DNA from: Bacteroidota bacterium
Lineage (GTDB): Bacteria > Bacteroidota > Bacteroidia > Chitinophagales > Chitinophagaceae
Reading direction: 5' to 3'
Assembly: GCA_013286425.1 (NCBI GenBank)
Contig: JABDFS010000008.1
Coordinates: 1 to 37,122 of the forward strand
DNA: 37,122 nt
The position numbers and the translations under genes are program-made. Below, one piece after another: positions 16,855-36,831 of this stretch; the first letter of the stretch is position 1, and every line of letters starts with the position of its first letter. Under the pieces are notes generated by a model. The model made no database searches and was not told the DNA's origin. It was given only the letters and a program-made list of their open reading frames with translations.

Positions 16855-18282
16855 CTACTTTCCTTTTACCACAGGCGGCGGGTTCCAGCTTCCATTTATC
16901 ATTTCGTCCTTTGGCCAATATATACGGAGCAACAAATTGAAAGGCCCGCCGGGAGAAGGCAGCCAGTTATTTTCTTTGTCTTTCCCCGGGTTATCTTTCT
17001 GAATGTAAATATCAATCGAGCTATCCGCATTTTTCTTTAGTGGATTCCTGTCGCCGATAGCAAAACGGTTGATCGGGTTAGTGCATAAAAAACCCTCGTT
17101 ATCATATACAGTCAGACTCCAGAAAGCCCTGGCCGGCGGTGCCTGGCCTTTATCAAAATGCAAAACATAATTATGTTTTGAACCATCATACGGTTCGCCA
17201 TCAGCATCAACTTTTGAAGCCGGGTATGAAGCATCTGCGTCCAGGTTAGCGCCTAATCCACCAAAAGCAACGCCTGCACGGAATGCGTACCTGGTGCCAT
17301 AATTTCCTAATCCACGATTGACGCCCCACCCGTTTATTAATTTAACATTGGAAAGCGTTTGCATATCCATGTCATTTTTTGCCGAGGCGGGTATTGTTTT
17401 TAAAGCATCCTGTACTGTTGAAGAAAATTTAGAGGCGTCAAAAGTTGCCCCGGGGGCAATGCCCAACGGTGCTAACCTTTTCATGAAGCCTGCATCAGCG
17501 TCAGAGGGTGGATTATCCAGCATCAGCTTATTCAACAGATTGAAATAGTCTGATGCAGACATTCCCAGTGCAATATCATTAGGCGCCTTTTTAGGAAGGG
17601 TTGAATCAATCCTGCCTGCAGGAAGCGTATAAGTTTTGCCATAGGCACTTAACGGAACCAGTTTATATCCTTCCTGTATCTTTTTTACCACAGTAGCACC
17701 ATCCTGTGCACTGTTTACCTGTGTGCGACCCAGCATCCATACAAGATCTGTAGGTGATTTTACCTGTTGCATGCCTTTGGGTACTTCACCGTTCCATTTT
17801 GGCCCGGTGATCAGGTAGGTTTGCGCCTCTGTTCCGGTAGTTCTTTTCCCGGGACTGAAAAATACATTTGTCCATGCATCCAGCATTGGAAAGAGATAAT
17901 ACCTGCCATTGGTGTTGGGCAGATTTAAAACAAGCGGTTCTTTCCCCAGGTCAATATTTGCAGATGAATAATATGTATCGTTATTAGGGCGCACTACCAC
18001 ACGGAATTTATCATCAGGAAACTGGTTGGCATTGGCTAACTGGTTCACCGGCGCCATCATTTTTTGCGGCATGGGTTTATCTGTGTTAGTACTCATCTGC
18101 TGGGTAATTTTCATAATAATGAGCGGGAAACCGAATTCGTAAGCCTCCTTAAGCGTTTGAACAGTTCCCGTATCACTGGCTGATGCAGTATTCGCTGTTT
18201 CTTCTGAAGAAGATTGCTTTGAAGTTTGATTACAAGCTGCAAATGACAGTACTGCAATAAATAGAAAGAGCGTTTTTTTCAT
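16855..18282 (-). CDS. DUF1254/DUF1214 lipoprotein, paralog A
   Basis: The 475-residue precursor has a lipoprotein signal (lipobox LSFAAC, C17, followed by NQ). A Ser/Thr linker of about 25 residues leads to an N-terminal DUF1254 domain (EAYEFGFPLIIM at 46-57; RPNNDTYYSS at 98-107; NGRYYLFPMLDAW) and a C-terminal DUF1214 domain (YVLHFDKGQAPPARAFWSLT, then VYDNEGF; NRFAIGDRN; NWLPSPGGPFNLLLRIYWP). The domains belong to COG5361, whose activity I do not know. Strongest resemblance in the window is to paralog E: both have GRTQVNSAQDG and PGKRTTGT. It is the last gene of the unit starting at 24801, 24 bases after the amidohydrolase gene. Lipid-anchored in the periplasm or outer membrane; surface display is possible. 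Confidence 0.9.
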   Translation of the reverse strand: MKKTLFLFIAVLSFAACNQTSKQSSSEETANTASASDTGTVQTLKEAYEFGFPLIIMKITQQMSTNTDKPMPQKMMAPVNQLANANQFPDDKFRVVVRPNNDTYYSSANIDLGKEPLVLNLPNTNGRYYLFPMLDAWTNVFFSPGKRTTGTEAQTYLITGPKWNGEVPKGMQQVKSPTDLVWMLGRTQVNSAQDGATVVKKIQEGYKLVPLSAYGKTYTLPAGRIDSTLPKKAPNDIALGMSASDYFNLLNKLMLDNPPSDADAGFMKRLAPLGIAPGATFDASKFSSTVQDALKTIPASAKNDMDMQTLSNVKLINGWGVNRGLGNYGTRYAFRAGVAFGGLGANLDADASYPASKVDADGEPYDGSKHNYVLHFDKGQAPPARAFWSLTVYDNEGFLCTNPINRFAIGDRNPLKKNADSSIDIYIQKDNPGKDKENNWLPSPGGPFNLLLRIYWPKDEMINGSWNPPPVVKGK

Positions 18283-18306
18283 ATTGAGCGTATTGATTTT
18301 ATTTTA

Positions 18307-20025
18307 CTACTTTTTGTAAATCGTTTTACCTTCCTTGATTGTTTCTGCAACCTTTATGTCTTTTATTTTCATCGGGTCAACCTTCAACGGGTTTTGATCA
18401 AGAATCACAAGATCAGCGAGTTTACCTGCTGTCAAACTGCCTTTACTGTTCTCTTCAAAATACTGATGCGCTGCATTGATGGTTATGCATTGCAAAGCCT
18501 GGTAAGGCGTTACCCTTTCATCCGCACCGAGCACAACACCGCTGCGCGTGGTCCTGTTCACTGCAGTACATACCACCATCATCTGGTCTATGGGAAGTAC
18601 ATTAAAGTCTGTATGGTTTGTTGCCGGTATCCCCATTTTCAATGCGGTATTTAACGGGCTTATAAATGAAGCCTGCTGTATGCCCCTGTTTTTAATATGT
18701 GCATCGCCAAAGAAAAAAGTATGCTCTGTGTACATAGAGGGAATCATGTTATACTGCCTGTATTTTTCCAATTGATCTTTGCGCACGAACTGCGAGTGAA
18801 TGATGGTAGTCCTCCTGTCAGCAGCACTATCATTGCCACTGGCGTACCGGTGTGCTTTTAAGATCATATCAATGGCTGCATCACCATTACCATGCACAAT
18901 AGTTTGTATATGCTCTCCGTATAACCATTTAAGCCAGGCGTTGAGTGAATCCTGCGGAAACGTTGGTGATCCCACCCAATTCTTTTCACCGCCCGGTCCA
19001 CCCGTTAAATAGGGCGTGGTAAAGAAGGCAGTTCTTCCCTGCGGCGATCCATCCATCGTAATTTTTACGCCACCTATCTTCAGGCGGTTGTCATATTTAC
19101 CAAATTCAGAGAAAGGATGCCCGGTTAATATGCTTCTTAAATCAAGAATAAAAGGGTAAGCAACTACATCAATAAACAAAGCATTGTGTTTGGCACCATT
19201 TTCCAATATATCAAGGTCTGCTTTATGTGTAGCGCCTTCCTGTGCTGTGGTTACGCCTGCTGCCGCATAGATCATTTGCCCGTCTTTCAACTGCTGCAAC
19301 TGCTGTTCCGGTGTAGGTTTGGGAAGGCTTGAAAATACAGGCAGGAAAGCAGTCTCCATTATTAAACCATAAGGTTCATCTGTTTCCGGGTGGCGTACAA
19401 TAATGCCGCCTTCCGGTGTAACCGTATTTGCAGTGTAACCGAATTTCTTCTGCGCCAAAGAATTTAATACGCCGCCGTGCAACGACACATGTATAACCAT
19501 TACAGGGTTACCAGGAAATGCTTTATCAAGATCATCGCGGTTTAGCAATCTTCCATTTGGCATTTGCGTATCGTCGTAACCATAGCCTATGATCAATTCT
19601 CCTTTTGGAATATTTTTAGTTGTTTGAAAATCTTTTAGCGCTGCAATAATTCCATCCACATCTTTTCCTGTACCCACCGGCGGCGGCGAACAATTTGCCT
19701 GCGATGCCATGGATAAAGAATTGATAAAATGCCCGTGCGGATCAATAAAGCCCGGCAGTAATGTTTTGCCCTGCAGGTCATTCATTACGGTGCTGTCCCC
19801 TTTCATTTTTTCCGCATCCGCTTTATTGCCCACGAAAACTATTTTGCCATCTTTTACGGTAATAGCTTCAACATAAGTGGCGCTGTCGCCTTCCATAGTT
19901 ATAATATCGCCGTTGTAATAAATGGCATTTGCCGCATCTGTTGCAGCAACATGACTGGTTACACTGTTACAGGCGCAAAGCAATAACCCGGCATAAATAA
20001 TAAGCAGTTGTGGTAGCTTTTTCAT
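18307..20025 (-). CDS. Amidohydrolase (YtcJ/Amidohydro_3-like) lipoprotein
   Basis: The 572-residue protein has a lipoprotein signal (LLLCAC, C19). It belongs to the amidohydrolase 3 group of metal-dependent hydrolases: an N-terminal strand domain (AIYYNGDIITMEGDSA), then the metal motif PGFIDPHGHF (91-100; H97 and H99), later His-bearing strands (VHGNGDAAID; IIHSQFVR), the final metal Asp region (ATNHTDFNVLP) and the closing strands (GKLADLVILDQNP). Such enzymes hydrolyse amide-type or related C-N bonds, most with unknown substrates. Cytoplasmic relatives are usual; a lipid anchor is less common and fits the export of everything else in this island. It lies 24 bases before paralog A and 106 bases after paralog B, so it is part of the same unit. 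Confidence 0.9.
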   Translation of the reverse strand: MKKLPQLLIIYAGLLLCACNSVTSHVAATDAANAIYYNGDIITMEGDSATYVEAITVKDGKIVFVGNKADAEKMKGDSTVMNDLQGKTLLPGFIDPHGHFINSLSMASQANCSPPPVGTGKDVDGIIAALKDFQTTKNIPKGELIIGYGYDDTQMPNGRLLNRDDLDKAFPGNPVMVIHVSLHGGVLNSLAQKKFGYTANTVTPEGGIIVRHPETDEPYGLIMETAFLPVFSSLPKPTPEQQLQQLKDGQMIYAAAGVTTAQEGATHKADLDILENGAKHNALFIDVVAYPFILDLRSILTGHPFSEFGKYDNRLKIGGVKITMDGSPQGRTAFFTTPYLTGGPGGEKNWVGSPTFPQDSLNAWLKWLYGEHIQTIVHGNGDAAIDMILKAHRYASGNDSAADRRTTIIHSQFVRKDQLEKYRQYNMIPSMYTEHTFFFGDAHIKNRGIQQASFISPLNTALKMGIPATNHTDFNVLPIDQMMVVCTAVNRTTRSGVVLGADERVTPYQALQCITINAAHQYFEENSKGSLTAGKLADLVILDQNPLKVDPMKIKDIKVAETIKEGKTIYKK

Positions 20026-20131
20026 CGTGTTAGTTTTATGGTATTGTTCCCAGGTATTTAAGTGTGTAATATATATTTATTCTGCTGTGCCGAATTACCC
20101 AATTGCGAACTTTCACACCACTTGCTATTCA

Positions 20132-21631
20132 CTACTTTACTTTTACCACCGGCGGCGGATTCCAGTTTCCATCTAAAACAGTTTGTTCCGGCCAGTAACA
20201 TCTTACATACAGGGAGAAAACATCTTTAGGAGCAGGCAGCCAGTTGCTCATTTTACCTGCATCCGGCGGCGTGCTTTGCACATATAATGTAAGCGAGCCG
20301 TCAGGATTTGTTTGAAGGTTTTTATTTTTTGTACCGAGCGAATACCTGTTCAACTGATTCGGCACAAAAAAATGCTCCTTGCTGTATATCGTAAGCGACC
20401 AGAATCCTTTTACCGGAGGTATTTCGCCTTTTGCAAATGTTACGGTGTATTTATTACTTCCATTCAATCTTGTGCCTGACGAATCCAGGTCCTGGTAAAA
20501 ATATTTTGTTTCATTAGGCTTGTTGACAAAAATGTTTGCCTTGGCACAGGCAGCTCTTGTGAGATAATCCACTCCAAACTGCGCCCCGTTGCTCTGTGTA
20601 GTCCAGTTATTTTTTACAGGGTATCCCACGTTTACAAACTGCAACAGAGGTGTTATAAGATTTTGTTCAGCGTCAACAGCCGCCATCTTCGCCGCTTCTT
20701 TCAATTTTGGATTTTTGTTTATTGCATCCAACAGGCCATTCACCTGGGCATACCATGCTTCTTCTCCTGCCTGGGGCGGAACTTCCTGCAGAATACCGGG
20801 AAGCTGATCAAAAAAAGTTTCGGGACTTACCCATTTGGTTTCCCCTCCACCTGAATTATCCGGTGGTGTGCTTTTGGTTTTTGACCAGTCTGTTATTTTC
20901 ATTTTGCCGTCGAACTCACTCAGCGGGTACTGCGTGATTTGATTGATCAATGTCTGCACTGCTGCTTTATCAGCAGGATCATCTGTCTGGAAAACACGGG
21001 GGGCAACAAACCCTAATGCAGTTGAACTTTTGAATACGCCCGCTATGCCATCGGGGACTTTGCCATTCCAACCCGGACCTGTAAACAGGTAAAAACCGGG
21101 TTTTGAATTGTACATTTTGCCAAGCCTGGCAAAACCATCAGTTCTTTCATCTGCCACCTGGTACACCCAGAAACGGTCGCCAAAATCCGGCACCTGGATC
21201 ACTACCGGTTCCTTGCGCAGGTCAATTGAACCAGCTCCATACACTACATCCTGGTTGGGACAGGCTACGATTCTTTGTTCCGCCTTCATGTAATCGGTGA
21301 GCATGCACATTCGATTGATCGGAGCCCCCGGTATTACACCACCTACATACATAGGTTCTTTTAACTGGTTAAACGTAGCCACCCTGTTATGCACATTTAC
21401 CAATGGCCAGGCCCACAGGTAGATAACCTTCGTCATGCTTTTTACATATTCTTCTGTCATCACGGTATTAGGCACCGGGCCGGACGGCATTTGTTTACCC
21501 GTGCTGTCCGATACAATAGCAGCATTGACAGAAGTTGTATCGCTGGGTGAAGCGCTACTTTTTGTTGTTGTATTTTGATTGCAGGCTGTTATTATCAGCG
21601 GCAAAGCAACCAGGAGGATTTGTTTATGCAT
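20132..21631 (-). CDS. DUF1254/DUF1214 lipoprotein, paralog B
   Basis: The 499-residue precursor carries a lipobox (LIITAC, C17). Mature part: a linker of about 30 residues, PNTVMTEEYVKSM, DUF1254 segments (YLWAWPLVNVHNR; CPNQDVVYGAGSIDL at 124-138; GDRFWVYQVADERTDG), then DUF1214 segments (YTVTFAKGEIPPVKGFWSLT; NRYSLGTKN; NWLPAPKDVFSLYVRCYWP). It is clearly the sister of paralog D, sharing the PNTVMT start, CPNQDVVYG and the length. Its 3' end (NPPPVVKVK plus the stop and AGTGAAT after it) also resembles the 3' end of paralog A, so tail exchange or shared ancestry is likely. It lies 64 bases after paralog C. Confidence 0.9.
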   Translation of the reverse strand: MHKQILLVALPLIITACNQNTTTKSSASPSDTTSVNAAIVSDSTGKQMPSGPVPNTVMTEEYVKSMTKVIYLWAWPLVNVHNRVATFNQLKEPMYVGGVIPGAPINRMCMLTDYMKAEQRIVACPNQDVVYGAGSIDLRKEPVVIQVPDFGDRFWVYQVADERTDGFARLGKMYNSKPGFYLFTGPGWNGKVPDGIAGVFKSSTALGFVAPRVFQTDDPADKAAVQTLINQITQYPLSEFDGKMKITDWSKTKSTPPDNSGGGETKWVSPETFFDQLPGILQEVPPQAGEEAWYAQVNGLLDAINKNPKLKEAAKMAAVDAEQNLITPLLQFVNVGYPVKNNWTTQSNGAQFGVDYLTRAACAKANIFVNKPNETKYFYQDLDSSGTRLNGSNKYTVTFAKGEIPPVKGFWSLTIYSKEHFFVPNQLNRYSLGTKNKNLQTNPDGSLTLYVQSTPPDAGKMSNWLPAPKDVFSLYVRCYWPEQTVLDGNWNPPPVVKVK

Positions 21632-21695
21632 GAATGATCATTTATTCTTTTTTTTAAATTTTGTGTTTTTACAATTCCATGTTTATAATTCATCA

Positions 21696-23108
21696 TCACA
21701 TCTTCTTTGGCAGCGGTGCTTTCCACGTACCATTGGTTACCGTTTCAGCCGGACCATATAACCGTATCACATAATTGAAAGGGCCCTGTGCAGGTGTGGG
21801 CAGCCAATTCGCCTCTTTATCTTTTCCGGGTGAAGTGGATTGCAGGTAAATATCAAGGCTGCCATCGGCATTATATTTTAAACCTTTTGACCTGTCACCG
21901 ATTGAATACCGGTTGATGGGATTGGTTGCAAGAAAACGTTTGGGTATTGTATACAATGTAGTGCTCCAGAAGTATTTTACGGGCGGAATTTGCTCTTTGG
22001 AAAAGTGCAATACATATTCCTGACCTCCCATCAGCATATTGCCTGCATCATCTTTGATGCTGCCCACATACACAGCCTCAATTTTGGTATTACCATATAT
22101 TCCCATTGCTGCCGCCGTGGCCTGTTTTATATAATCATTTTGCAGGTAGGCACGGGTGCCGAAAATATCCATCGAACTGGTAGTATTGTCTATACTTGTT
22201 TTCAGTGCTTCCATACCATCTTTTACGCCTTCATTTATGGCCGCCAACTCTTCTTTGGAATAGGCGGTGCTGTCAAACGGTTTGCCTGGTGTGATCCCTA
22301 TTTTGGCAAATCTTTCCCTTAGTCCTGTTTCACCGGGATCAACAGAAGTATATTGTAATAAAACATTCAACACACCAATAAAAGAAGCGCTCATATAATC
22401 GCCTTCCTTCCATGCAGGCAGGGGAAGGGCATATTGTTTATGATCCGGCGCAGGCTGTTTGGTAAATTCATGCAGCGGAGTAAGCATATATTTTGATTGA
22501 ATACTTTTTACGTTGGCCATATCTGTTTCATTCATCAGCTCGGTACGGCCCAGTATGGTAACAATATTGGTTTCGCAATGAAATACAGAATCAATCCCTG
22601 CAGGCTTGTCGCCTTTCCAGCCTGGCCCGGCTATCAAATATTTTCCAGCCTTATTCCCCGTTGACCTTGCGCCGGCATAAGCAAAATTGTAAGTATAGAG
22701 ATCAATAAGCTGCATCACATAATAGCGTTCAGCAGGCACTGCGGGTAATTCCAGCACTATTGGCTCATCACTCAGATCAAGTATCGCCCAGGAATAGGGT
22801 GTATCATCGTTTGGGGTTACGATGCTGGTGTCTTTATCGGTAAACATTTTGGCATAATGCTTAAAACGGTTAAAACCGCCTGCATTTGCCGGGAAATCCT
22901 TATCGAGTGCATACAGGTAAATGCTCTTGTAATTGTAGAACATGGCATACCCGTATATCCAGGCTTCTTTGGCGATCGCGCGTGCCGAATCCATAGCTAT
23001 GCCAGCGCCCGTTGCGGTTGAATCAGAAGACGCTGTTGTTGTATTTGAGTTGTTGTTACAGGCTGCCAAAAGCAGCACCGGTAATAAAGCAATGATAATT
23101 TTCTTCAT
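21696..23108 (-). CDS. DUF1254/DUF1214 lipoprotein, paralog C
   Basis: The 470-residue precursor has the lipobox LLLAAC (C17). DUF1254 signs are AKEAWIYGYAMFYNYKSIYL, TPNDDTPYSWAILDL (98-112) and AERYYVMQLIDLYTYNF. DUF1214 signs are YVLHFSKEQIPPVKYFWSTT, NRYSIGDRSKGL and NWLPTPAQGPFNYVIRLYGP. In place of the usual YWP ending it has YGP, shared only with paralog F. The signal peptide is nearly the same as that of paralog D (MKKI-I-LPVLLLAAC), pointing to duplication of at least the 5' end. No other paralog is clearly its partner, so it is a separate subtype. It is 199 bases downstream of D across a repeat-bearing spacer, so it may have its own promoter. Confidence 0.9.
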   Translation of the reverse strand: MKKIIIALLPVLLLAACNNNSNTTTASSDSTATGAGIAMDSARAIAKEAWIYGYAMFYNYKSIYLYALDKDFPANAGGFNRFKHYAKMFTDKDTSIVTPNDDTPYSWAILDLSDEPIVLELPAVPAERYYVMQLIDLYTYNFAYAGARSTGNKAGKYLIAGPGWKGDKPAGIDSVFHCETNIVTILGRTELMNETDMANVKSIQSKYMLTPLHEFTKQPAPDHKQYALPLPAWKEGDYMSASFIGVLNVLLQYTSVDPGETGLRERFAKIGITPGKPFDSTAYSKEELAAINEGVKDGMEALKTSIDNTTSSMDIFGTRAYLQNDYIKQATAAAMGIYGNTKIEAVYVGSIKDDAGNMLMGGQEYVLHFSKEQIPPVKYFWSTTLYTIPKRFLATNPINRYSIGDRSKGLKYNADGSLDIYLQSTSPGKDKEANWLPTPAQGPFNYVIRLYGPAETVTNGTWKAPLPKKM

Positions 23109-23116
23109 AGTTTTTT

Positions 23117-23152
23117 ATTTCTGATTTCTGATTTTCTGATGTCTGATTTTTC
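23117..23152. repeat. Short direct repeats, TTTCTGAT-type
   Basis: Four near-copies of an 8-9 base unit (TTTCTGATT, TTCTGATTT, TCTGATG, TCTGATTTT) lie 9-44 bases upstream of the paralog C start codon. A related TTTCTGAC lies upstream of paralog D. They may be slippage-type or operator-like repeats; they are too simple to interpret. Confidence 0.4.
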
Positions 23153-23211
23153 AATCTCCAGCCTTGAACCTTGAATCCTAAATCATATCAAAGTTTTGTT
23201 TTGCTTAGTGA

Positions 23212-23307: not shown

Positions 23308-24801
23308 TCACTGCTTCATCAATGCCGGCGGTACATATCCATTCACCATAGATTGCTCCGGCCAATATGCCCTTAGCAACAAACCGAATTTAGCTGTTGG
23401 AGTGGGTAACCAGTTGGCAGCTTTGTCACCCGCTGGTTTGGTATGTTGCAGGTAGAGTGTTAATGAACTATCAGGATTAAATTTTAAATCTTTATTCTTG
23501 GTACCAAGTGAATATATTTTATCAGGATTCTGGTAAAAGAAGTGATTGGCATCGTATACCGTTAATGACCAGAATCCCTTTACTTTGGGTATTTCATCTT
23601 TACTGAAAGTTATGGTGTAACCTGAAGTGCCACTCAACTCTTTGCCACTGCTGTCCAAATCCTGGTTATAATAAATGGTTTCGCTCGGTTGATTTACAAA
23701 GATGTTGCACCTGGCTGCGGCAGTGCGGCTTAAGTAATCAGTTCCCCAGGAAGCGCCATTCTTCGTGGTATTCCAGTAATTACCTACCGGTACACCTACA
23801 TTTTTAAACTGGCGTAATGGATCAATCAATTCTTTTTCCGCATCTACTGCTGCCTTCACCAAGGATGAATATAAACTACTATCTTTTTTTACCGCATCCA
23901 TTACAGCCTGGAATTGTGCATATAAAGGTTCCTCACCTTTTAAAGGCGATACTTCCTGTAATACAGCCGGAAATTCTGCAAAGAATTTTTCAGGGATCAC
24001 AAAAGAAACTTCTTTACCTCCTTCGCTCTTGTTGGGGTCGGGAAAAGAAGGGATTTTTGTCCAGTCTTTTGTTTTTATAGTGCCGTTATATTCGCTTAAT
24101 GGATAAATATTCAGTTTGCTGATCACTTCACGCACTGCTGCTTTATCAATTGAATCATTTGTAACAAAAGTACGGGGCAGTACATAGGCTACACTTGTAG
24201 GTGAATAGAACACCTGATTTATTCCTTTGGGAATATCACCTTTCCAACCCTCTTTGGCAATCAAATAAAACCCGCTTTTACTGCCATACATACTTCCCAA
24301 TCCGCCGATTCCGTCCGTACGCTGGTTACCCATTTGTATCACCCAGAAACGGTTGCCAAAATCCGGCACCTGCACTACAACAGGCCCTTTATCCAGCAGC
24401 ATAAAGGAAGCACCGTACACTACATCCTGGTTAGGACAGGCTACATAACGTTGGTCGGGAGTAATATAGTCAGCAAGCATACATAAATACCCAAGTGGCG
24501 CAACCGGAACCGCGCCGCCGTTCAAACCCGGTTCAGGGATCTGTGACATTACCAAAACGCGGTTGTGCAGGTTTACGAGTGGCCAGCCCCAGAAATACAT
24601 CTGCTTGCCCATCTGATATACATAAGCCGGAGTCATTACGGTATTCGGCATAGGGCCCTTAACTGATGAACTGGCTGTATCCAGTGTACTGGTATTATTA
24701 CCAGTAACCAAAGTATCTGTATTACTATTTTCTGTATTGGTTTGCTGTGCACATGCTGCAAGCAGCAGAACCGGTAAAAAAACAATAACGATTTTTTTCA
24801 T
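23308..24801 (-). CDS. DUF1254/DUF1214 lipoprotein, paralog D
   Basis: The 497-residue precursor has lipobox LLLAAC (C17) and starts the unit D-C-B-amidohydrolase-A. After a Thr/Ser/Asn linker come PNTVMTPAYVYQM, FWGWPLVNLHNRV, CPNQDVVYGASFMLL (122-136) and GNRFWVIQMGNQRTDGIGGL of DUF1254, then YTITFSKDEIPKVKGFWSLT, IYSLGTKN and NWLPTPTAKFGLLLRAYWP of DUF1214. It is the sister of paralog B in length and in nearly all motifs. Compared with A, C and E it has an extra segment of about 20 residues between the first helix and the PNxDxxY motif (APLGYLCMLADY). The 5' spacer of almost 300 bases to the next remnant probably carries the promoter. Confidence 0.9.
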   Translation of the reverse strand: MKKIVIVFLPVLLLAACAQQTNTENSNTDTLVTGNNTSTLDTASSSVKGPMPNTVMTPAYVYQMGKQMYFWGWPLVNLHNRVLVMSQIPEPGLNGGAVPVAPLGYLCMLADYITPDQRYVACPNQDVVYGASFMLLDKGPVVVQVPDFGNRFWVIQMGNQRTDGIGGLGSMYGSKSGFYLIAKEGWKGDIPKGINQVFYSPTSVAYVLPRTFVTNDSIDKAAVREVISKLNIYPLSEYNGTIKTKDWTKIPSFPDPNKSEGGKEVSFVIPEKFFAEFPAVLQEVSPLKGEEPLYAQFQAVMDAVKKDSSLYSSLVKAAVDAEKELIDPLRQFKNVGVPVGNYWNTTKNGASWGTDYLSRTAAARCNIFVNQPSETIYYNQDLDSSGKELSGTSGYTITFSKDEIPKVKGFWSLTVYDANHFFYQNPDKIYSLGTKNKDLKFNPDSSLTLYLQHTKPAGDKAANWLPTPTAKFGLLLRAYWPEQSMVNGYVPPALMKQ

Positions 24802-25590: not shown

Positions 25591-25610
25591 AATGCACAGC
25601 CGTAATAAGC

Positions 25611-28673: not shown

Positions 28674-30128
28674 CTACTTCACCTCTTCTATATCTCCCAT
28701 CTTCCACGATTTATCATACAGTGCTTTCTGAGGGCCATAGAACCGCGCAAGTACTTCGAACTGTCCTTTGGCATCTGTAGGTATCCAGTTGGATTCACCA
28801 CCTGATGGAGGCGTAGGCCCGAAGTAGATGTCAACAGAACCATCGCTGTTTTTCTGAATGCCCGGTGTTTGTGATGAACGCCCCATCCATTTTGCATCGC
28901 GGATGAATGTATGTGTGTCACGGTTATACACGGTCATTGACCAATACTGCGTGACCGGCGCATTGGCAGGTACAATCAGTTTATACTGTTTGCTTCCGTC
29001 AAACGGTTTTCCTTCTTTATCCTCTATCGTCATCAGGTAATATTGCGACTCACCAATATGTTTTGCACTGAAAAATGCCATCGTGTAAACCATGCCGCGG
29101 TTATCTACAGGATAGGAATCCGGAACATTGAAATCGTGGATAAGGCTTTGATGTGTTTCTTCAGTAGCGGGGAAAAACCAATGTGCGCCTTCATAATAAG
29201 GCGGCATTGATTCATAGGTGTTGTCCAGCCATGCTTTTGCATCTTTGACAGCCTGGTTCAAAATCTCCTGCGTTCTTGCATCTGGGTTAAACGGTTTGCC
29301 TCTTTCAATACCAATGGTCTTTAACGGGTCGATCATTGCCCTGTCGCGCTCCAGCCAGGGTTCTGCCTGTATCATTTCATTGAGCGATTTGAAGAAATTT
29401 ATATCATATGGAATAGTGGCATCGAACACAATATTACTTGCATCCACATAGGCAGTTTGCGGCGGATTAGCAGCCTGTGACAATGGGTAAACTTTGAGGT
29501 GCTTTGAATACCGGATGGCTGCTGCCAGGTCGGCATCGCTGCCGCTTTTAAGCACCGAACGGATGAGTGCATAGCCCTGGTAAGTGTTTGAAGCAAGGGG
29601 AATGTAACCTTTAGGCACTTTATTAGTGTCGTAACCCGGGGGCAGGAAGAGATATTTACCGCCCCTGCCTTTGTCAACACCGCCCGGCCCGATATCTTCA
29701 ATAGCTGCCTGCCAGTAGTTCATCACACTGCCGTTCAGGCGCCCGCTGTCAGCAGGAGGAACCTCCAGTACAACCGGCCCAACATCTTTTGTATTGAAGA
29801 AAGGCATAAGGTAGATCACATCGGGATTGGGTGTGAGTGTCTGGTTTTTCCAATCCAGCAGTTCCGGCCAGTACAGTATTTGATTAAAGCCGCCTTTCAG
29901 TTTATCTGCCATTTCCTGGTACATGAGCTGGTAATTAACTGCAGGCATTCCCCAGATTACGGCCTCCATGGCACGGCTGTAGATCACCTGCTCCTGTATA
30001 TTGGCAGGTTTGAAAACTGCCGATGATGTTGTTGTGTCTGTGCCTGCTGTTTGTGTATTGCTGCCTGCGTTTTGATTGCAGGCTGCCAGCAGCAGGATCA
30101 CAATGAACGGGAAGAGCTCTTTTTTCAT
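28674..30128 (-). CDS. DUF1254/DUF1214 lipoprotein, paralog F (divergent)
   Basis: The 484-residue precursor has lipobox LLLAAC (C17). It keeps the core motif as TPNPDVIYLMPFF (99-111) and the DUF1214 end (YKLIVPANAPVTQYWSMTVY; NWIPTDAKGQFEVLARFYGP), but differs elsewhere. The start is VIWGMPAVNYQLMYQEMADK, and the GRYYxxPMLD segment of the others is replaced by NGSVMNYWQAAIEDIGPGGV, followed by GRGGKYLFLPPGY. It is the most distant of the six. It lies 73 bases after the outer-membrane protein gene and is probably co-transcribed with it, in contrast to the other paralogs, so it may have a distinct partner or ligand. Confidence 0.9.
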   Translation of the reverse strand: MKKELFPFIVILLLAACNQNAGSNTQTAGTDTTTSSAVFKPANIQEQVIYSRAMEAVIWGMPAVNYQLMYQEMADKLKGGFNQILYWPELLDWKNQTLTPNPDVIYLMPFFNTKDVGPVVLEVPPADSGRLNGSVMNYWQAAIEDIGPGGVDKGRGGKYLFLPPGYDTNKVPKGYIPLASNTYQGYALIRSVLKSGSDADLAAAIRYSKHLKVYPLSQAANPPQTAYVDASNIVFDATIPYDINFFKSLNEMIQAEPWLERDRAMIDPLKTIGIERGKPFNPDARTQEILNQAVKDAKAWLDNTYESMPPYYEGAHWFFPATEETHQSLIHDFNVPDSYPVDNRGMVYTMAFFSAKHIGESQYYLMTIEDKEGKPFDGSKQYKLIVPANAPVTQYWSMTVYNRDTHTFIRDAKWMGRSSQTPGIQKNSDGSVDIYFGPTPPSGGESNWIPTDAKGQFEVLARFYGPQKALYDKSWKMGDIEEVK

Positions 30129-30201: not shown

Positions 30202-31014
30202 TTAAAAAACAAAGATCACGACACTCCTGATACCAAAAGCCGGCCTTAAACCTTCGGGCCCTGCCAACGGTATTCTTGGCCCGATGGCCATCTGAATGGG
30301 CTGTTTGCCTATTTTGGTAATACCTGAAATAACAGGATTTAAAAACAATAAGGTTGTGTTCGCCTGCCAGTTCTGTGTAAACTCCATATTGCCGCCAAGG
30401 CTTGCGCCACTGGAAAAACTGTGTGAAAAGAAAGGTTGTACAAATAACTGGCTTACGTCCTGCCGGTTTTTATCACCTGCTACTGACCATAGCTGGTTTA
30501 GCAGGAAACCGAAGGTGTTGCCATGACCCTGTTTAAGTGCCAATGCCGTTGGGCCCACGCCAAATTTTTTAGTTCCGAGATAATCATTGGTAGCAATAGG
30601 TATAAGCAAGGCAGGACCTACACCCCATATAAAACCATTTTTTGGGTGTGCAGAGGTAAACCAGGCGCTTGCGGTGGCATCACTTAAACCAAACTGCTGT
30701 GTATTTGGGCCGGTAATGTCCCGTTGCGCCACGATGGGTATTATATACCTTGTAATAAGATTAAGATTACCGGTTAGTTTAAATGGAATAACCGGCTGGA
30801 AATTCAGCGTATTCTTTGATCCGTTATTTGGCCCGATGCCCCAGTCGCTGTTGTTTTGGAAAGGCACACTGATCATACTGGCAACAGGATTGGATAATTT
30901 ATCTGCCAGTTCCTGTGCGCTGGCGCCTGCAGGTGCAGGTTGTTGCTGGGCCTTAGAGAAAAAAGGTACAAGAATAAGCAAGAAGATCGCGCATTTTTTG
31001 GTCAGTTGTATCAT
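30202..31014 (-). CDS. Outer-membrane channel-like protein (Phenol_MetA_deg/neuromedin U-like)
   Basis: I choose the ATG at 31014, giving a 270-residue precursor with a good signal peptide (MIQLTKKCAIFLLILVPFFS-KAQ); an upstream ATG at 31074 would bury the signal behind 20 polar residues. After a short Ala/Pro/Gln linker the sequence reads QELADKLSNPVASMISVPFQ, then NNSDWGIGPNNGSKNTLNFQ, the start seen in proteins annotated as neuromedin U or as the MetA-pathway phenol degradation family. The rest is amphipathic beta strands ending in a strand with terminal Phe (SVVIFVF), as outer-membrane barrels do. It probably forms a pore for small, perhaps hydrophobic, molecules. It is followed by paralog F in the same unit. 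Confidence 0.8.
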   Translation of the reverse strand: MIQLTKKCAIFLLILVPFFSKAQQQPAPAGASAQELADKLSNPVASMISVPFQNNSDWGIGPNNGSKNTLNFQPVIPFKLTGNLNLITRYIIPIVAQRDITGPNTQQFGLSDATASAWFTSAHPKNGFIWGVGPALLIPIATNDYLGTKKFGVGPTALALKQGHGNTFGFLLNQLWSVAGDKNRQDVSQLFVQPFFSHSFSSGASLGGNMEFTQNWQANTTLLFLNPVISGITKIGKQPIQMAIGPRIPLAGPEGLRPAFGIRSVVIFVF

Positions 31015-31390
31015 GAAATGGTTTTTATGATCGTGATATGTAAGTGCCGCCCTGTTAAGTGTATCAACAGGCATAATGTTTTTAAATTTAAATTAGTGAC
31101 ACTTCTCAACACAGGTTTTCGCCAGTATAAGGCTTATTTTTTTGATGTTTGAAGCCGGTATATAGCTGTAATTGATTTAAATGGCAGGAGCAAAGCACAA
31201 CCATTTGCCTGTCATGCTCAGCCTGACCGGGCATCTCATTCTTAAAAGCTTCGGAGAGAACTTCATTATGAGATTCCCACTTTCCCGAATAGCGGGAGAG
31301 GCCGTGGGAATGATGGCGACGAGGTTATTGATATACAGAGTTTAAAATGGCAGGTATAAAGCATAACACATGCTCATCATGCACAGCTCT
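31015..31390. other. Intergenic region with inverted repeats
   Basis: Around 31210-31315 the sequence GTCATGCTCAGCCTGACC...GCATCTCAT...ATGAGATTCCCAC...GTGGGAATGAT forms nested inverted repeats: ATCTCAT/ATGAGAT and TTCCCAC/GTGGGAA with an inner CCCG/CGGG. This style of element (GTCATGCTGAG...GGGAATGAC) is a common intergenic repeat in Bacteroidota. It lies just beyond the 3' end of the HAD gene's upstream neighbour and before the promoter of the outer-membrane protein gene. No gene is visible. Confidence 0.55.
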
Positions 31391-32401
31391 TTACGGATAT
31401 ATCTTTTTCCAGTCATGCTGCATATCTACAATTGTCCATCCATATTTTGGCGCATCATCAAGGCCTTTTTCCAGTTTACCAATGGGCGAGCCGCGATCAT
31501 ATTTCCATTCCCTGGCGGAATCAGTATGATGCACAATAATTTCCATGTGCGGCAATGCATTAGTACTGGTAAACTGCAGCATCTGGTAATCACCATCAGA
31601 ATTGCCTGCTGCGAATACCGGTTTTTTGCCGATATGCTGGTAAATGCCAACAGGTTTACCTGGGCCATCATCCATAAACTCAAATTGAGGCAGGCGTTGT
31701 ATGCCTGTTGAATCGTAGCTCACCTTAAATGAACTGCCGATCACCTGTTGCGGCGGAATACCATAGGCTTTTTCGGCCCATGCCCGCATGAAGGAAATAT
31801 CACCACCCGAAACAATATAAGTTTGAAAGCCATTGGCACGCATGTATTGCAGCAGTTCTACCATTGGCTGGAAGATCATTTCCGTATATTTTTTATGGGT
31901 GACGGGATTGGTTGCGGTATCTGCCCATTCTTTTACAGATTTGTCAAAAGCATCCCCGTTCATACCACCAAAAGTGGCGCCCATTATAGTAAACAGACCT
32001 TTTTCACCTGAAGACAGCACACCTTTTAAATTACCTTCCAATACAGATTTAAAAGGTTCTTTAGTTTTCCATTCGGGATGTTGCGGCGCCACCTGTTTTA
32101 TCTTATCGAAAGAATAAAAAAGCTGAAAATACAGGGGCTGCTCGCTCCACAACGTACCATCATTATCAAAAACGGCAATGCGGTCACCGGCAGGAATAAA
32201 ACCGCTGCTGCCTTCTTTTGCGGCATTGGTTACATAATCAACCAATGACCTCTTTACATTACCATCATTCCATGAAGGCAGAGGATCGGCATTATTTGCC
32301 GTTACTGTTGTTGTAGTGGTGTCAGTGTTGCCTGTTTTATCAGGTGCGGGATTGCAGCAAAAGAACAGGAAGGCAATCATTGTTATGGTTAGCTTTTTCA
32401 T
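31391..32401 (-). CDS. HAD-superfamily phosphatase lipoprotein
   Basis: The 336-residue protein has a lipoprotein-type start (FLFFCCN, Cys at 15 or 16) and a HAD hydrolase domain. Motif I is VFDNDGTLW (77-85) with D79 and D81, motif II is the Ser of IVSGGD (196-201), and motif IV is AAGNSDGDYQM (264-274). A cap-like insertion of about 110 residues lies between motifs I and II. Such enzymes hydrolyse phosphate monoesters, often phosphoserine-like or sugar phosphates; export suggests a scavenging or surface role. It lies 76 bases downstream of the sulfatase gene, so two ester-cleaving enzymes (sulfate and phosphate) are paired. Confidence 0.9.
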   Translation of the reverse strand: MKKLTITMIAFLFFCCNPAPDKTGNTDTTTTTVTANNADPLPSWNDGNVKRSLVDYVTNAAKEGSSGFIPAGDRIAVFDNDGTLWSEQPLYFQLFYSFDKIKQVAPQHPEWKTKEPFKSVLEGNLKGVLSSGEKGLFTIMGATFGGMNGDAFDKSVKEWADTATNPVTHKKYTEMIFQPMVELLQYMRANGFQTYIVSGGDISFMRAWAEKAYGIPPQQVIGSSFKVSYDSTGIQRLPQFEFMDDGPGKPVGIYQHIGKKPVFAAGNSDGDYQMLQFTSTNALPHMEIIVHHTDSAREWKYDRGSPIGKLEKGLDDAPKYGWTIVDMQHDWKKIYP

Positions 32402-32477
32402 CTTTTGTTAATTTAAAAAAATACATCCCGTACTGTATATTCCGGGATGTATTCATCAGAACAAAATAATTTTTAAA

Positions 32478-34046
32478 TTAATTTCCACCCACCGGTGCGT
32501 GTGCTTTTAATATCTGGCTGTTTATTTGATTTATTTCATCTTCAACCCCATCAACTGAGAAGCTGGCAGGTAATTGAGATGGCGGATAATCTTTGAATGT
32601 TTCCAGGAATAAAACAGCATGGTAACCTAACCATCCGACCAGGTAAGCATTTTTAAAAGTCCAGTCGTAATATTGGTCAGAAACAATGTCTGCCCTTTCG
32701 TAGGGATCCATTCTCAGGTTAAATATTTTAGGTACCCTGTAAGTGGTAAAGGGGTCAGCCCAAACAGGGAATCCACCCGGAGCAGGCTGCTCACGAAATA
32801 CAGCTTTCCAGTTTCCATGGCGGATGCCAACTATCTGTGCGTCATCATTAAAATAAATAAATTCATCTCTTGCACTGGAATCTGATTTGCCTGTAATAAA
32901 GTCCAGCTGGTTATAACCATCCAGGTGAACTTTAAAGGTTTTACCGCTTACAGATGTTCCTTTTAGAAGGTCATTTTTAATGGTTGTGTTTCCTGCGGCT
33001 GCCAGTAAAGTAGGAAACCAGTCCAGGCCTGAAAACATACCATTGGTTAAACCACCTGGTTTAATATGGCCGGGCCAGCTTACAAATGCAGGCACACGGT
33101 AAGCGCCTTCCCAGTTGGTATTTTTTTCACTGCGGAAAGGAGTGGTGGCAGCATCGGGCCAGCTAAACTGGTTAGGCCCATTATCTGTTGTAAAAATCAC
33201 AATGGTATTATTTGTAATTTTCAGGTCATCCAATGCCTTCATCAGTTTGCCTACATCTCCGTCCATTTCCAGCATACCATCCGCATAATCATTACCAGGC
33301 ATCCCGCTTTGGCCCTGCATAGAGGGGCGTATATGTGTAAATGCATGCATGTGGGTAAAATTCATCCAGCTAAAAAATGGCTTGCCGTTCTGCACCTGTC
33401 TCTTCATAAAATCAATACAGGCAGCGGTAGTTTCATCATCAATGGTTTCCATCCTTTTAGCAGTCAACGGACCTGTGTCTTCTATCTTGCCGTCTGCAAA
33501 CGTATGTAGTACGCCACGAGGTGTGTTAGACCTTGTATACGCTGTATCCTCCTTTGGCCAGTAAGGACGTTCCGGTTCTTCTTCCGCATCAAGGTGATAC
33601 AGGTTTCCAAAAAATTCATCAAAGCCATGATTGGTAGGAAGAAACTGATTTTTATCACCTAAGTGATTCTTACCAAACTGGCCACACATATAACCCTGTG
33701 GTTTTAATGCCTGTGCAATAGTAATATCACGGTCCTGCAAACCCACCGGCGCACCGGGAATGCCCACTTTAGATAGGCCCGTACGTTTAGCGCATTGCCC
33801 GGTAATAAAAGTAGAACGGCCGGCAGTACAGCTGTTCTCTGCATAATAATCTGTGAACATAAGCCCTGAATGAGCAAGTTTGTCAAGGTTAGGGGTAGTG
33901 TAACCTACAATACCCATTCCATAAGCGCTGATATTGGTGATACCCACATCATCACCAAAGATTACGAGGATATTAGGTTTTGATTGTGCCTGCAGCAGCG
34001 ATACAAAGCTGATACAGATCAACAGCATTAAACTTTGTTTTTTCAT
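32478..34046 (-). CDS. Secreted arylsulfatase-type sulfatase (family S1)
   Basis: The 522-residue precursor has a signal peptide (to about residue 20, LLQA-QSKP). It is a type I sulfatase: KPNILVIFGDDVG (23-35) with metal ligands D32 and D33; the catalytic motif NSCTAGRSTFITG with C73 in the C-x-A-x-R form that is converted to formylglycine; GKNHLGD (125-131); THMH (231-234); FTTDNGPNQ with D288 and N289; and SEKNTNWEGAYRVP with K308. It hydrolyses sulfate esters in the periplasm or outside the cell. Conversion of the cysteine needs a maturation enzyme (FGE or anSME), which is not in this window. It is flanked by the HAD phosphatase and a helical periplasmic protein. Confidence 0.93.
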   Translation of the reverse strand: MKKQSLMLLICISFVSLLQAQSKPNILVIFGDDVGITNISAYGMGIVGYTTPNLDKLAHSGLMFTDYYAENSCTAGRSTFITGQCAKRTGLSKVGIPGAPVGLQDRDITIAQALKPQGYMCGQFGKNHLGDKNQFLPTNHGFDEFFGNLYHLDAEEEPERPYWPKEDTAYTRSNTPRGVLHTFADGKIEDTGPLTAKRMETIDDETTAACIDFMKRQVQNGKPFFSWMNFTHMHAFTHIRPSMQGQSGMPGNDYADGMLEMDGDVGKLMKALDDLKITNNTIVIFTTDNGPNQFSWPDAATTPFRSEKNTNWEGAYRVPAFVSWPGHIKPGGLTNGMFSGLDWFPTLLAAAGNTTIKNDLLKGTSVSGKTFKVHLDGYNQLDFITGKSDSSARDEFIYFNDDAQIVGIRHGNWKAVFREQPAPGGFPVWADPFTTYRVPKIFNLRMDPYERADIVSDQYYDWTFKNAYLVGWLGYHAVLFLETFKDYPPSQLPASFSVDGVEDEINQINSQILKAHAPVGGN

Positions 34047-34113
34047 GATTGGTTTTTTAGAATTTAAAATGTACGACTGGTAACCCTGTTGCCAGCCCCT
34101 GTAAAAAATATTA

Positions 34114-34605
34114 CTAAGGAGTTTGCATTTTGCTTTTGTCTAATTCGTCAATAAACGGAACATCTGTCATCACTTTTGCCCTTACCAGCGTTTGCAGGTA
34201 TACTTCCAGCTGGAATAATTTAGCTGCGCTTCTTCCGCCGGTTATAGCACTGAATTTTTTAAGATAAGTTTGATACAGCGTTGTGTACTGGGCATCATTT
34301 GCCAGTGTTTTTGTAGCGAGTTCGGTTGCCTTTGCATCAGTAAGTTTATCGTAATTATCTGCGTATTGCTGTATTATATTAATCCGTGCTTTACCCAATG
34401 CTTTTCTTTTGCCTTCATATTCATCATATAATTTCCAGAAGGCAACACTGTCTTTTGCCGGCACCTGCATGTATTGGCTTACCAGGTCTTTTTTAGTTTT
34501 ACCAAATGCTGCCTGTACCATGTCGATATCTTCGTTGTTGCTTTGTGCCATCAACGAATTAAAACTGAAGAAAACGCATGCTGCAATAATTAATGTTCTT
34601 TTCAT
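34114..34605 (-). CDS. Helical periplasmic protein (163 aa), unknown function
   Basis: The precursor has a signal peptide (MKRTLIIAACVFFSFNSLMA-QSNN). The rest is almost entirely helical and rich in Lys, Asp, Ala and Gln, with heptad-like spacing (VAFWKLYDEYEGKRKALGKA; YTTLYQTYLKKFSAITGGRS). The pattern is reminiscent of Spy/CpxP-like periplasmic helical chaperones, but the LTxxQ motif is not present, so I give no family. It sits 67 bases upstream of the sulfatase gene and 30 bases downstream of the large repeat protein gene, in one transcription unit. Its likely place is as accessory partner of one of them. Confidence 0.7.
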   Translation of the reverse strand: MKRTLIIAACVFFSFNSLMAQSNNEDIDMVQAAFGKTKKDLVSQYMQVPAKDSVAFWKLYDEYEGKRKALGKARINIIQQYADNYDKLTDAKATELATKTLANDAQYTTLYQTYLKKFSAITGGRSAAKLFQLEVYLQTLVRAKVMTDVPFIDELDKSKMQTP

Positions 34606-34635
34606 AAAAGTGGTTTGATATTAATGTTTGATAGA

Positions 34636-36831
34636 TCAACGATGAAATCTTCCGCCACCGCCCCGGAAACCTCCGCCGCCATGCTGGAAGTTCTGAAAGC
34701 GCTGTGTTTGTACCTGGCCGCGCTGGCGATTTTGAAATGACTGATTAAGTTTATCTCTTGTTTCTGAATTCAGGTTAGCAGGCTTTTGCCAGGTATTACC
34801 TTTTACATTCTGGCTCCAGCTCCCATCGGCATTTTTTCTATATACATTGCCGTCTTTGCCGGCAAATGTTCCGTTCTTTCCATTCACTACCTTAGTTCCG
34901 TTGGGGCCAATAACACCCGACTGCCCGTTGGCTGTTCTGTAGCCCACAGCAGTTCCGTTTGCTGTGGTAACATGTCCTGTCTGCACCCATTGATTGCCTC
35001 TTCCTGCAACAGATGTTCCCCATTGTGCATAAGGGCTATGCCCCTGGCTGGTTCCGGCATAGCCACCCGTCCACGGATTGTACCCTCCGGCTACTGTTCT
35101 GCCGTTATTCCAACCCTGTACCGTAGCAGCGTGGCCATATCTTCCCGTTGCGGGGTTATACCCTGCAGCGGAACGGGCATAGCCATAAGGGCCGTAATAA
35201 GCGCGGCCTGCTGCCCATCCACCCGTCCACGGATTATACACGGCTCCTGCACCCCAGGCGCAAGGCCATGGATTATAAAAAGGATACATCATTCCCGGGC
35301 CCCACCACATGAACGGCGGATAATACCAGCCTGTGCCGTATGCTATGCATGCGCCAACAGCCGCACCGAAAATAAACATGCCAAGATACCCTGCAGTATA
35401 ACTGCTTTCAACGGTGGTTTCCGTTGCATTGGTTTGAGTAACGTATGTTACGTTGTATACCGGTGAACTTGCCGGAATGGAATATATCTCTTTGGGAATT
35501 GAATCGGCTACTTTCCACGGACCGTTAGGATTATCAGCTATAAACCAGATAGCATTGTCGCATAAATAATATATGTTGGCATCTTTAATTACTCTCGATT
35601 GTGTATTGGCTGCATATTCAAGCTGAGTTTGTTCTATGGGTTTGAATTGCGGGTCGCCGCTGTAAGTAACTTTTACTTTGGCTTCTACCTCTGCTTTGCT
35701 TACAACTGCTGTTGTAGGAACCTGCGCCAGTAACACTGCATCATTGGCTTCAATGGTTCCGGGAACAGATGAAAGCACATGCGCCTTTTCTGAATTTTCA
35801 GGTACTTTGGAGAAATCAGCAGGCATCTCATTGCTGGTGAAAGTCCACGGTCCTTCCGGCGAAGCGGCGCGGTACCATCTGCCTGAAAGCAATACATAAA
35901 ACTGCTTTGTTGTATTGTCCAGGAAAAGATCATTGTCTGTATTGGCTACATATAAAAGATTTGTACCACTGATCTTTGAATACACGGGCGATCCCTTCAA
36001 CAAGATCATTTCTGCAGGCTTATCGCTGAAAAATATTTTAGGAACAGCGATTGATGTTGCCGGTGGAGGGACCATCTTTTTAACTGCATCAAAGTTTTCT
36101 TCTGAAGGCAGCCTGTTCATGTCTTTCGGAAGTGTTTTTGTTTGCACCCAACCTGATTTATAATCTTTTGAAGTGAGCCAGGCATTGTTCAATAACAGGT
36201 AATAATCTTTTTGTTTTTTATCGTAAAAAATATCCCAGTTTGTGTTTACAATAAATTCAAGGTTTGTTTTTTCGATTGGCGCCATCAATGCTGAATCACC
36301 TTCCACCATTACTATAATTGCAGGAGCAGTGCTGTAAAATATTTGTGGCGGATCATTTTTAATATCAACTGCCTGTGCCGCAGATTTTTCTTTATCCATA
36401 TCCGCTATGATCCTGTCAAGCGAAACAGGATCTCCCCCGGTTGGCATTATCTTCCTGAAAAGATCTGTCATCAGCTGAACGGAATCGGCTCCCAGTGAAG
36501 GGAACCTTACATCGTTAGCCTTAACATCACGGATAAAAACAGTTCGGTTATCTTTATCAACGATCGTATTGCATTCTATGGAAGCCACTCCTAACACCTG
36601 TTTTCCATTTTTTGGCGTAAGTGAAAAAGCCATCTCAGCGGTTAGATCTTTATAATCTTTCCAGTCATCAATCTGAGGCTGGTAATAAATCAATGCCGAA
36701 CCATCTTTTACAACCTGTCTTGGCCAACCTGCATCCTGAACGGTACTTTGTGCAGCAAGCCTTTTTACTGAAGCGAGAAAACAAATCATCAGTAAAAAGA
36801 CAGGTATAAACGGAGCAAGGTTTTTTTTCAT
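34636..36831 (-). CDS. Large exported repeat protein with Gly/Tyr/Trp-rich tail
   Basis: I choose ATG 36831 (731 residues), which opens a clear signal peptide (MKKNLAPFIPVFLLMICFLA, cleaved near RLAA-QSTV); the ATG at 36855 would add eight polar residues. Three related units follow at about 164-240, 266-335 and 388-450, each with a Tyr/Phe-Ser-x-x-P or similar start, an I-x-x-T-x-L-x-Y/F-x-x-NT segment, and a final strand such as GRWYRAASPEGPW or AIWFIADNPNGPW. A hydrophobic helix (about 479-500) is followed by repeats of YNPWTGG and AxGYNPxTGRYG type, then NGTKVVNGKNGTFAGKDGNV and a GGGGFRGGGG end. Similar proteins have been annotated as carbohydrate-binding family V/XII. It heads the unit with the helical protein, sulfatase and phosphatase. 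It may bind a glycan or form surface material. Confidence 0.72.
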   Translation of the reverse strand: MKKNLAPFIPVFLLMICFLASVKRLAAQSTVQDAGWPRQVVKDGSALIYYQPQIDDWKDYKDLTAEMAFSLTPKNGKQVLGVASIECNTIVDKDNRTVFIRDVKANDVRFPSLGADSVQLMTDLFRKIMPTGGDPVSLDRIIADMDKEKSAAQAVDIKNDPPQIFYSTAPAIIVMVEGDSALMAPIEKTNLEFIVNTNWDIFYDKKQKDYYLLLNNAWLTSKDYKSGWVQTKTLPKDMNRLPSEENFDAVKKMVPPPATSIAVPKIFFSDKPAEMILLKGSPVYSKISGTNLLYVANTDNDLFLDNTTKQFYVLLSGRWYRAASPEGPWTFTSNEMPADFSKVPENSEKAHVLSSVPGTIEANDAVLLAQVPTTAVVSKAEVEAKVKVTYSGDPQFKPIEQTQLEYAANTQSRVIKDANIYYLCDNAIWFIADNPNGPWKVADSIPKEIYSIPASSPVYNVTYVTQTNATETTVESSYTAGYLGMFIFGAAVGACIAYGTGWYYPPFMWWGPGMMYPFYNPWPCAWGAGAVYNPWTGGWAAGRAYYGPYGYARSAAGYNPATGRYGHAATVQGWNNGRTVAGGYNPWTGGYAGTSQGHSPYAQWGTSVAGRGNQWVQTGHVTTANGTAVGYRTANGQSGVIGPNGTKVVNGKNGTFAGKDGNVYRKNADGSWSQNVKGNTWQKPANLNSETRDKLNQSFQNRQRGQVQTQRFQNFQHGGGGFRGGGGRFHR

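Follow-up and report, generated by a model that had tools for sequence, protein, structure and literature searches.

The window analyzed here is a 37.1-kb stretch of DNA, the first part of a 54.9-kb Bacteroidota contig whose assembly is 64% complete. Thirteen intact genes occupy positions 16855–36855 (Table 1). This island encodes six lipoproteins composed of DUF1254 and DUF1214 domains, together with a set of exported enzymes and membrane-associated proteins that is considered here as a candidate system for organosulfate hydrolysis. A first-pass annotation, made from this DNA alone, had described a single-strand island, and this holds for all 13 intact genes, among them the amidohydrolase and HAD lipoproteins, the sulfatase, and the helical and repeat-rich proteins that it had named. 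The same annotation had made its reading depend on co-occurrence beyond this genome, and related gene sets do recur in other Bacteroidota and on some Pseudomonadota plasmids. This co-occurrence is real, though partial.

Table 1 Intact genes of the island, listed along the minus strand.
Feature	Coordinates	Strand	Basis or remark
Repeat-rich exported protein	34636..36855	-	739 aa; internal ATG gives 36831
Helical exported protein	34114..34605	-	163 aa
Exported type I sulfatase	32478..34046	-	DD, CTAGR, KNH, DN, K motifs
HAD lipoprotein	31391..32401	-	DNDGT, SGG, GNSDGD motifs; near solved structure 4ovy
Barrel-like exported protein	30202..31074	-	start possibly internal ATG near 31014
DUF1254+DUF1214 lipoprotein f	28674..30128	-	Pfam, tree
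DUF502-like membrane protein	27333..27938	-	weak Pfam match
DUF1254+DUF1214 lipoprotein e	25796..27229	-	Pfam; structure modelled
DUF1254+DUF1214 lipoprotein d	23308..24801	-	Pfam, tree
DUF1254+DUF1214 lipoprotein c	21696..23108	-	Pfam, tree
DUF1254+DUF1214 lipoprotein b	20132..21631	-	Pfam, tree
Amidohydro_3 lipoprotein	18307..20025	-	Pfam; homologues flank DUF1254 gene in G367 (L087)
DUF1254+DUF1214 lipoprotein a	16855..18282	-	Pfam, tree

The sulfatase and HAD genes retain their catalytic features. The sulfatase scores above the PF00884 cut-off, and its CTAGR signature (C/S-x-P/A-x-R) and metal, Lys/His and DN motifs are intact, as is characteristic of type I enzymes. Likewise, the HAD lipoprotein exceeds the PF12710 cut-off, carries the intact motifs of a HAD enzyme, and matches the solved structure 4ovy over residues 39–336 (E = 6e-105). 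A gene for a lipoprotein of the formylglycine-generating enzyme (FGE) family is located on another contig of the same genome (E = 2.5e-84 to the FGE of an Agrobacterium cluster described below), and maturation of the sulfatase is therefore plausible. In agreement with the eight lipoboxes originally reported, eight lipoprotein-type N-termini are readable by eye (the six DUF1254 proteins, the amidohydrolase and the HAD protein), of which the HAD N-terminus, with FFCC, is not a textbook lipobox.

The remaining partner proteins are less readily assigned. The gene first described as a DUF502 membrane protein does encode a membrane protein, but its PF04367 match falls below the cut-off (E = 0.02; 15.2 bits versus 23.8). 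A homologue in genome G177 reaches DUF502 with an E value of 9e-8, and DUF502-like homologues are found beside the HAD gene in G177 and, more weakly, in a cluster of G173. The label of MetA-like channel is not supported: PF13557 gave no match, and hhalign to a protein from a cluster 'transporter' of the Phenol_MetA_deg type returned a probability of 1.6. This product, which matches no Pfam family, is better called a barrel-like exported protein; a Rhizobium homologue is encoded 4.5 kb from an arylsulfatase. The repeat-rich protein is 37–38% identical along its length to four rhizobial proteins and is a homologue of a rhizobial 'SH3 domain-containing protein' from which the SH3 part is missing. 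Neither this protein nor the helical protein has a Pfam match at E 0.001. Homologues of the helical protein are present in four genomes (G177, G131, G277 and G082), near DUF1254 or sulfatase-HAD genes.

Intergenic gaps measure 30–316 bases from the repeat-protein gene through that of DUF1254f, then 735, 103 and 994 bases, and 24–199 bases in the final block. This spacing suggests that the island is transcribed as three or four units. A search for a single Bacteroidota-type promoter pattern gave 0 matches, with 2.09 expected by chance. The 994-base gap between the genes for DUF1254e and DUF1254d contains a decayed, gene-like stretch on the plus strand with several stops (~25100–25600). In the gap downstream of DUF1254f, an 11-base unit forms short tandem repeats (28278–28332). 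At the left edge of the island, three good copies of 33-nt repeats resembling repetitive extragenic palindromes are found at 15922–16840, and amid them lies a short open reading frame with a weak match to Y1 transposases (16028–16321). On the opposite side, a sigma-70-family gene is positioned 0.6 kb upstream of the first gene of the island (L060, contig positions 37123–54907).

Six DUF1254/DUF1214 lipoproteins

The initial description of six full-length DUF1254+DUF1214 paralogs is confirmed by Pfam scores far above the cut-offs for both PF06863 and PF06742. These six are the only DUF1254 matches in the 64%-complete assembly, and all are on this contig. Residues N103, Y108, R189, Y374, W390, R455 and Y457 (protein e numbering) are kept in all six paralogs, and other positions among 43 listed conserved ones vary here and there in each. 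Because these seven strongly conserved family residues are all retained, none of the paralogs looks decayed. A structure model of protein e, of modest confidence (pLDDT 69), superimposes on 3u07 with a Z score of 27.1 (root-mean-square deviation of 3.5 for 377 residues), on 2p3y with a Z score of 24.0, and on 6ans with a Z score of 12.0. All further structure matches listed for this model have Z scores below 6 and are uninformative; matches of the DUF1254 half to folds resembling carbohydrate-binding modules were weak (Z about 5) and were not used.

Some lipoproteins are directed to the cell surface by an acidic export signal that follows the lipidated Cys residue. Inspection of the island lipoproteins revealed no obvious signal of this kind, which makes a periplasmic position the simpler inference.

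In a 76-sequence tree built with a quick method, proteins a and e fall in sister groups, b and d share one clade, and c and f each stand apart. The nearest tree neighbour of a, b, c and e is in each case a protein from another genome, and the clades mix phyla. Three named loci stand closest to protein e, and they belong to metagenome-assembled genomes of Chitinophagaceae, Bacteroidetes and Sphingobacteriales. Since the paralogs occupy separate groups, the island appears to have gathered old DUF1254 subfamilies. Thus, of the earlier proposal that these proteins form a diversified core, the diversity stands, whereas the tree argues against a recent local expansion. Their role as the core is also weakened, as the sulfatase-HAD pair occurs without a neighbouring DUF1254 gene in, for example, G082, G277, G261 and G386. 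Adjacent same-strand DUF1254 pairs were found in 26 of the 59 DUF1254-bearing locus records, a set that includes the window and some overlapping records.

Co-occurrence in other Bacteroidota

DUF1254 genes are patchily distributed, being present in 6 of 59 near relatives and in 17 of 395 genomes across the phylum (own genome counted in both). In the same 395 genomes, a close homologue of the HAD lipoprotein (E below 1e-90) was identified in 13, and 11 of these also carry DUF1254. The association is strong by Fisher's test, which ignores relatedness (P = 1e-15; 2e-14 when the own genome is left out). A sulfatase gene lies directly beside the close HAD gene in 11 of the 13 genomes (10 of 12 without the own genome). 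In G177, 5.4 kb separate the HAD gene from the nearest sulfatase; in G195, the HAD gene reads with one stop, and a distant sulfatase is encoded 0.6 kb away, past a small open reading frame. The barrel-like gene directly follows the HAD gene in 7 of the 13 genomes. Of 12 weaker HAD matches, the regions of four were fetched (G252, G149, G346 and G176), and none of these four has an adjoining sulfatase.

Comparison of these loci reveals how the DUF1254 genes are joined to the set. In G225 and G367, the order sulfatase-HAD-barrel-DUF1254-DUF1254 matches that of the window as far as the first DUF1254 gene, the product of which groups with neither counterpart: the first DUF1254 proteins of G225 and G367 fall in a sister group of protein f. 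In three other genomes of their genus (G082, G277 and G261; g63), sulfatase-HAD-barrel is followed immediately by a DUF2252-like gene (assigned by Pfam on the G277 copy only), and in G225 and G367 this gene seems to come after the DUF1254 pair (L099–L101, L061 and L064 compared). The pair therefore seems to have been either inserted into a sulfatase-HAD-barrel unit or lost from it. The recurring core consists of the sulfatase and the HAD lipoprotein, with or without the barrel-like protein; DUF1254 or FGE genes accompany it in some genomes, and alkyl sulfatases or sulfate transporters do so at other DUF1254 loci.

Most of the set, plus FGE, was found in G177, which belongs to another family. 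Between 259 and 282 kb, its MscS-like, HAD, DUF502-like, barrel and FGE genes are joined by a pair of close sulfatases, the helical gene and five DUF1254 genes. This locus bears on the proposal that the island is two functions set side by side by chance or transfer, a conserved sulfatase-HAD-barrel-DUF1254f group on the right and an unrelated DUF1254/amidohydrolase group on the left. Such a juxtaposition would agree with the 735- and 994-base gaps that split the block, with an amidohydrolase-DUF1254 group in G367 that has no sulfatase within 10 kb (its right flank being outside the fetched region), and with DUF1254e orthologues in L019–L021 that have no other island genes in 12–17 kb (two of them near a contig or locus end). 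G177, in contrast, joins several DUF1254 subfamilies, sulfatases, HAD and DUF502-like genes in 25 kb, and in G032 (L049) a DUF1254a-type gene is 0.75 kb from a close sulfatase. We consider the two-function explanation unlikely.

Starting from the DUF1254 genes, a sulfatase is encoded within 10 kb at 11 of the 34 loci outside the window, these 11 falling in five genera, versus 1.25 expected from sulfatase counts (P = 1e-8 on an assumption of independent loci that does not hold). The local count relies on phmmer calls at E 1e-9, the expectation derives from Pfam counts at E 1e-15, and some loci stop at a contig end or at the edge of the fetched region. In the genus-mate G006, DUF1254 is accompanied by an FA_hydroxylase homologue, five sulfatase-like genes, an alkyl sulfatase and a TonB-type receptor. 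In G375, the DUF1254 and DUF1214 domains are encoded by separate genes next to each other, within a run of SusC-like and SusD-like genes (by similarity), a sulfatase, FA_hydroxylase, an alkyl sulfatase, a rhodanese-thioredoxin and a PF03601 transporter; gene order in G261 is similar (Pfam on the G375 copies only). At L083 and L084 of genus g63, the split form consists of two small proteins encoded in a cluster of SusC/D-like, sulfatase and alkyl sulfatase genes (Pfam on L083).

These arrangements raise the alternative of a polysaccharide utilization locus (PUL) that acts on a sulfated polysaccharide. DUF1254 is paired with sulfatases and SusC/D-like genes (so named because they resemble the L060 pair) in G001, G375 and G261, and a GH97 and SusCD operon is positioned on the same strand as the island, ~6–11 kb upstream on the contig (L060). 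Within 16855–36855, in contrast, a Pfam scan of the island proteins found no glycoside hydrolase and no SusC/SusD pair, the pair by which a PUL is recognized. Moreover, alkyl sulfatases and a member of the fatty-acid hydroxylase family, both encoded at the related loci, hint at lipid-like substrates. We view a PUL-type function as very unlikely.

Plasmid relatives and probable horizontal transfer

When the window proteins were compared with plasmids by tblastn, many rhizobial homologues were identified. On Agrobacterium pAtAF1_95 and in Rhizobium leguminosarum Vaf10, genes for the repeat protein, a transporter, an arylsulfatase, MoxR/VWA/BatD, FGE and HAD are clustered, and the Vaf10 cluster additionally holds a DUF1254 pair. 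Paracoccus yeei has arylsulfatase, MoxR and HAD genes in a row. Of the 30 HAD plasmid matches listed, 19, many of them from near-identical strains, lie no more than about 14 kb from a close sulfatase in the list; a further 2 have a sulfatase only at a distance, and 9 fall outside the 60 listed sulfatase matches.

Among 19 regions picked by a DUF1254 match alone, 5 encode a sulfatase or an alkyl sulfatase no more than about 10 kb away. These five are from R. leguminosarum OyaliB, R. johnstonii (arylsulfatase and putative sulfate exporter), S. medicae (arylsulfatase and sulfate ABC transporter), A. pusense (alkyl sulfatase) and Roseobacter litoralis (two arylsulfatases, a transporter and a short SUMF1-type gene). 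Four unannotated regions (L117, L118, L121 and L123) were compared only with a protein panel that has no alkyl sulfatase. One further region of this set, from Rhodococcus, contains SulP. On the 46-kb plasmid pANL of Synechococcus elongatus (L126, L125), a DUF1254 gene is accompanied by genes for cysteine synthase (cysK), a cysteine desulfurase and the SrpI encapsulin; srp in pANL gene names presumably stands for sulfur-regulated plasmid. A reported drop of the pANL DUF1254 gene was rejected as evidence, since 28 of the 29 changed pANL genes fell (PMC13125312).

Several features point to horizontal exchange. The window sulfatase is placed inside a fully supported (100/100), otherwise proteobacterial group in a tree of 26 sequences, from which closer Bacteroidota relatives may be missing. 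This grouping suggests transfer of the sulfatase between phyla; the HAD tree does not settle whether that gene moved likewise. The G+C content of the island (0.433) exceeds that of its flanks (0.378 and 0.387), and third-position values overlap those of neighbouring genes, so composition gives only mild support for transfer. Taken together, the sequence data suggest that the island was assembled horizontally.

Proposed organosulfate hydrolysis and comparison with known systems

The explanation we favour, to which we give about an even chance, is that the island encodes a horizontally assembled periplasmic system for organosulfate hydrolysis, tethered to the outer membrane. In this scheme, a sulfated, probably amphiphilic compound would cross the outer membrane via the barrel-like protein. 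The DUF1254/DUF1214 lipoproteins, on the periplasmic face, may bind, present or chemically process the substrate. Sulfate would then be removed by the exported sulfatase, matured by the FGE encoded elsewhere in the genome, and the remainder could be trimmed of phosphate by the HAD lipoprotein and at C-N or related bonds by the amidohydrolase. Released sulfate would feed cysteine synthesis, and the alcohol would enter carbon metabolism. The genes, their intact catalytic motifs, the recurrent clustering with sulfatases, the sulfur genes at some loci and the FGE-family gene are observed; the cellular location, the substrate, the role of DUF1254 and the order of steps are inferred. Organosulfates are preferred over glycans or aromatics in general because alkyl sulfatases or sulfate transporters are encoded at other DUF1254 loci. 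The uptake and breakdown function first proposed is thereby sharpened, with co-occurrence elsewhere in its favour, and nothing was found that supports the surface-modifying alternative offered with it.

Several observations weigh against this explanation. DUF1254 is not tied to sulfatases alone: 23 of the 34 Bacteroidota loci and 14 of the 19 DUF1254-picked plasmid regions have no sulfatase within about 10 kb, and two of the five rhizobial regions fetched with the repeat protein (Pararhizobium and Ensifer canadensis) show neither sulfatase nor HAD. The expression data found for this family in two other bacteria concern matters other than sulfur: a Caulobacter DUF1254 gene is iron-responsive and is labelled phosphatidylserine decarboxylase in the table concerned, and a Bradyrhizobium DUF1254 gene appears in an NnrR list. 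The barrel-like protein is a putative channel only, and confidence in the protein e model is modest.

The MoxR/VWA/BatD and MscS genes of the rhizobial clusters could, in addition, point to envelope maintenance or modification, with sulfated or phosphorylated molecules of the cell's own envelope as the substrates of the enzymes. Consistent with such a role, an MscS-like gene precedes HAD in G177, and no catabolic role is known for the DUF502-like protein or the repeat protein. Uptake better accounts for the sulfate transporters, alkyl sulfatases and SusC/D-like genes that neighbour DUF1254 in other genomes, and the patchy presence of DUF1254 (5 of 58 other near relatives) is unlike that of housekeeping genes. 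We regard an envelope function as quite unlikely.

Beyond this locus, it is possible, if on balance doubtful, that DUF1254/DUF1214 lipoproteins, often paired across subfamilies, constitute an unrecognised organosulfur-handling class, either binders or new enzymes that work with type I or alkyl sulfatases, in a horizontally spread, outer-membrane-tethered form of sulfur scavenging. Such a class would extend over Bacteroidota and Pseudomonadota, and perhaps Actinomycetota and Cyanobacteriota. In the open-licence literature searched, DUF1254 was not found together with the word 'sulfatase' (a query that leaves words like arylsulfatase unmatched), nor was a gene cluster of arylsulfatase, FGE and MoxR; the passages available contain no tested DUF1254 function and label the family as phosphatidylserine decarboxylase, in an HNH-nuclease context, or as mobilome. 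The family has solved structures, and its recurrent association with sulfatases, alkyl sulfatases and sulfate transporters offers a specific, testable hypothesis, for which compact clusters are available in S. medicae WSM1115 and Roseobacter litoralis Och 149. If true, it would add a component to the means by which bacteria of soil and sea free sulfur from sulfated lipids or surfactants. The related blocks in distant bacteria suggest a little-studied use of sulfated compounds.

Sulfatase-centred uptake and breakdown is a known kind of system; this composition and the DUF1254-sulfatase link were not found in the literature searched. The solved DUF1254/DUF1214 proteins VPA0106/VPA0735 (3u07, 2p3y and 3vb9) are uncharacterised by title. 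The slf operon of the Psychrobacter plasmid pP62BP1, which converts alkyl sulfate to acyl-CoA (PMC3346939), resembles the present case in that organic sulfate metabolism is plasmid-borne. It differs in its metallo-β-lactamase-type alkyl sulfatase, dehydrogenases and CoA ligase, and the available part of its description mentions no DUF1254, HAD or type I sulfatase. With type I (formylglycine) sulfatases that depend on FGE (arylsulfatase 7aj0 and arylsulfatase A), the window enzyme shares its motifs, near full-length similarity and an FGE-family gene in the genome, but it is embedded among DUF1254 lipoproteins together with a HAD lipoprotein, and the searches made gave no name for such a set. 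The clusters of Agrobacterium pAtAF1_95 and R. leguminosarum Vaf10 encode proteins that are, respectively, 64% and 67% (sulfatase), 52% and 50% (HAD) and 38% and 37% (repeat protein) identical to those of the window, and Vaf10 also shares one pair of DUF1254 genes. These rhizobial clusters add FGE, MoxR/VWA/BatD, an alpha/beta hydrolase, MscS and a MetA-type transporter, which the window lacks, whereas the window is set apart from them by its six DUF1254 genes and the amidohydrolase.

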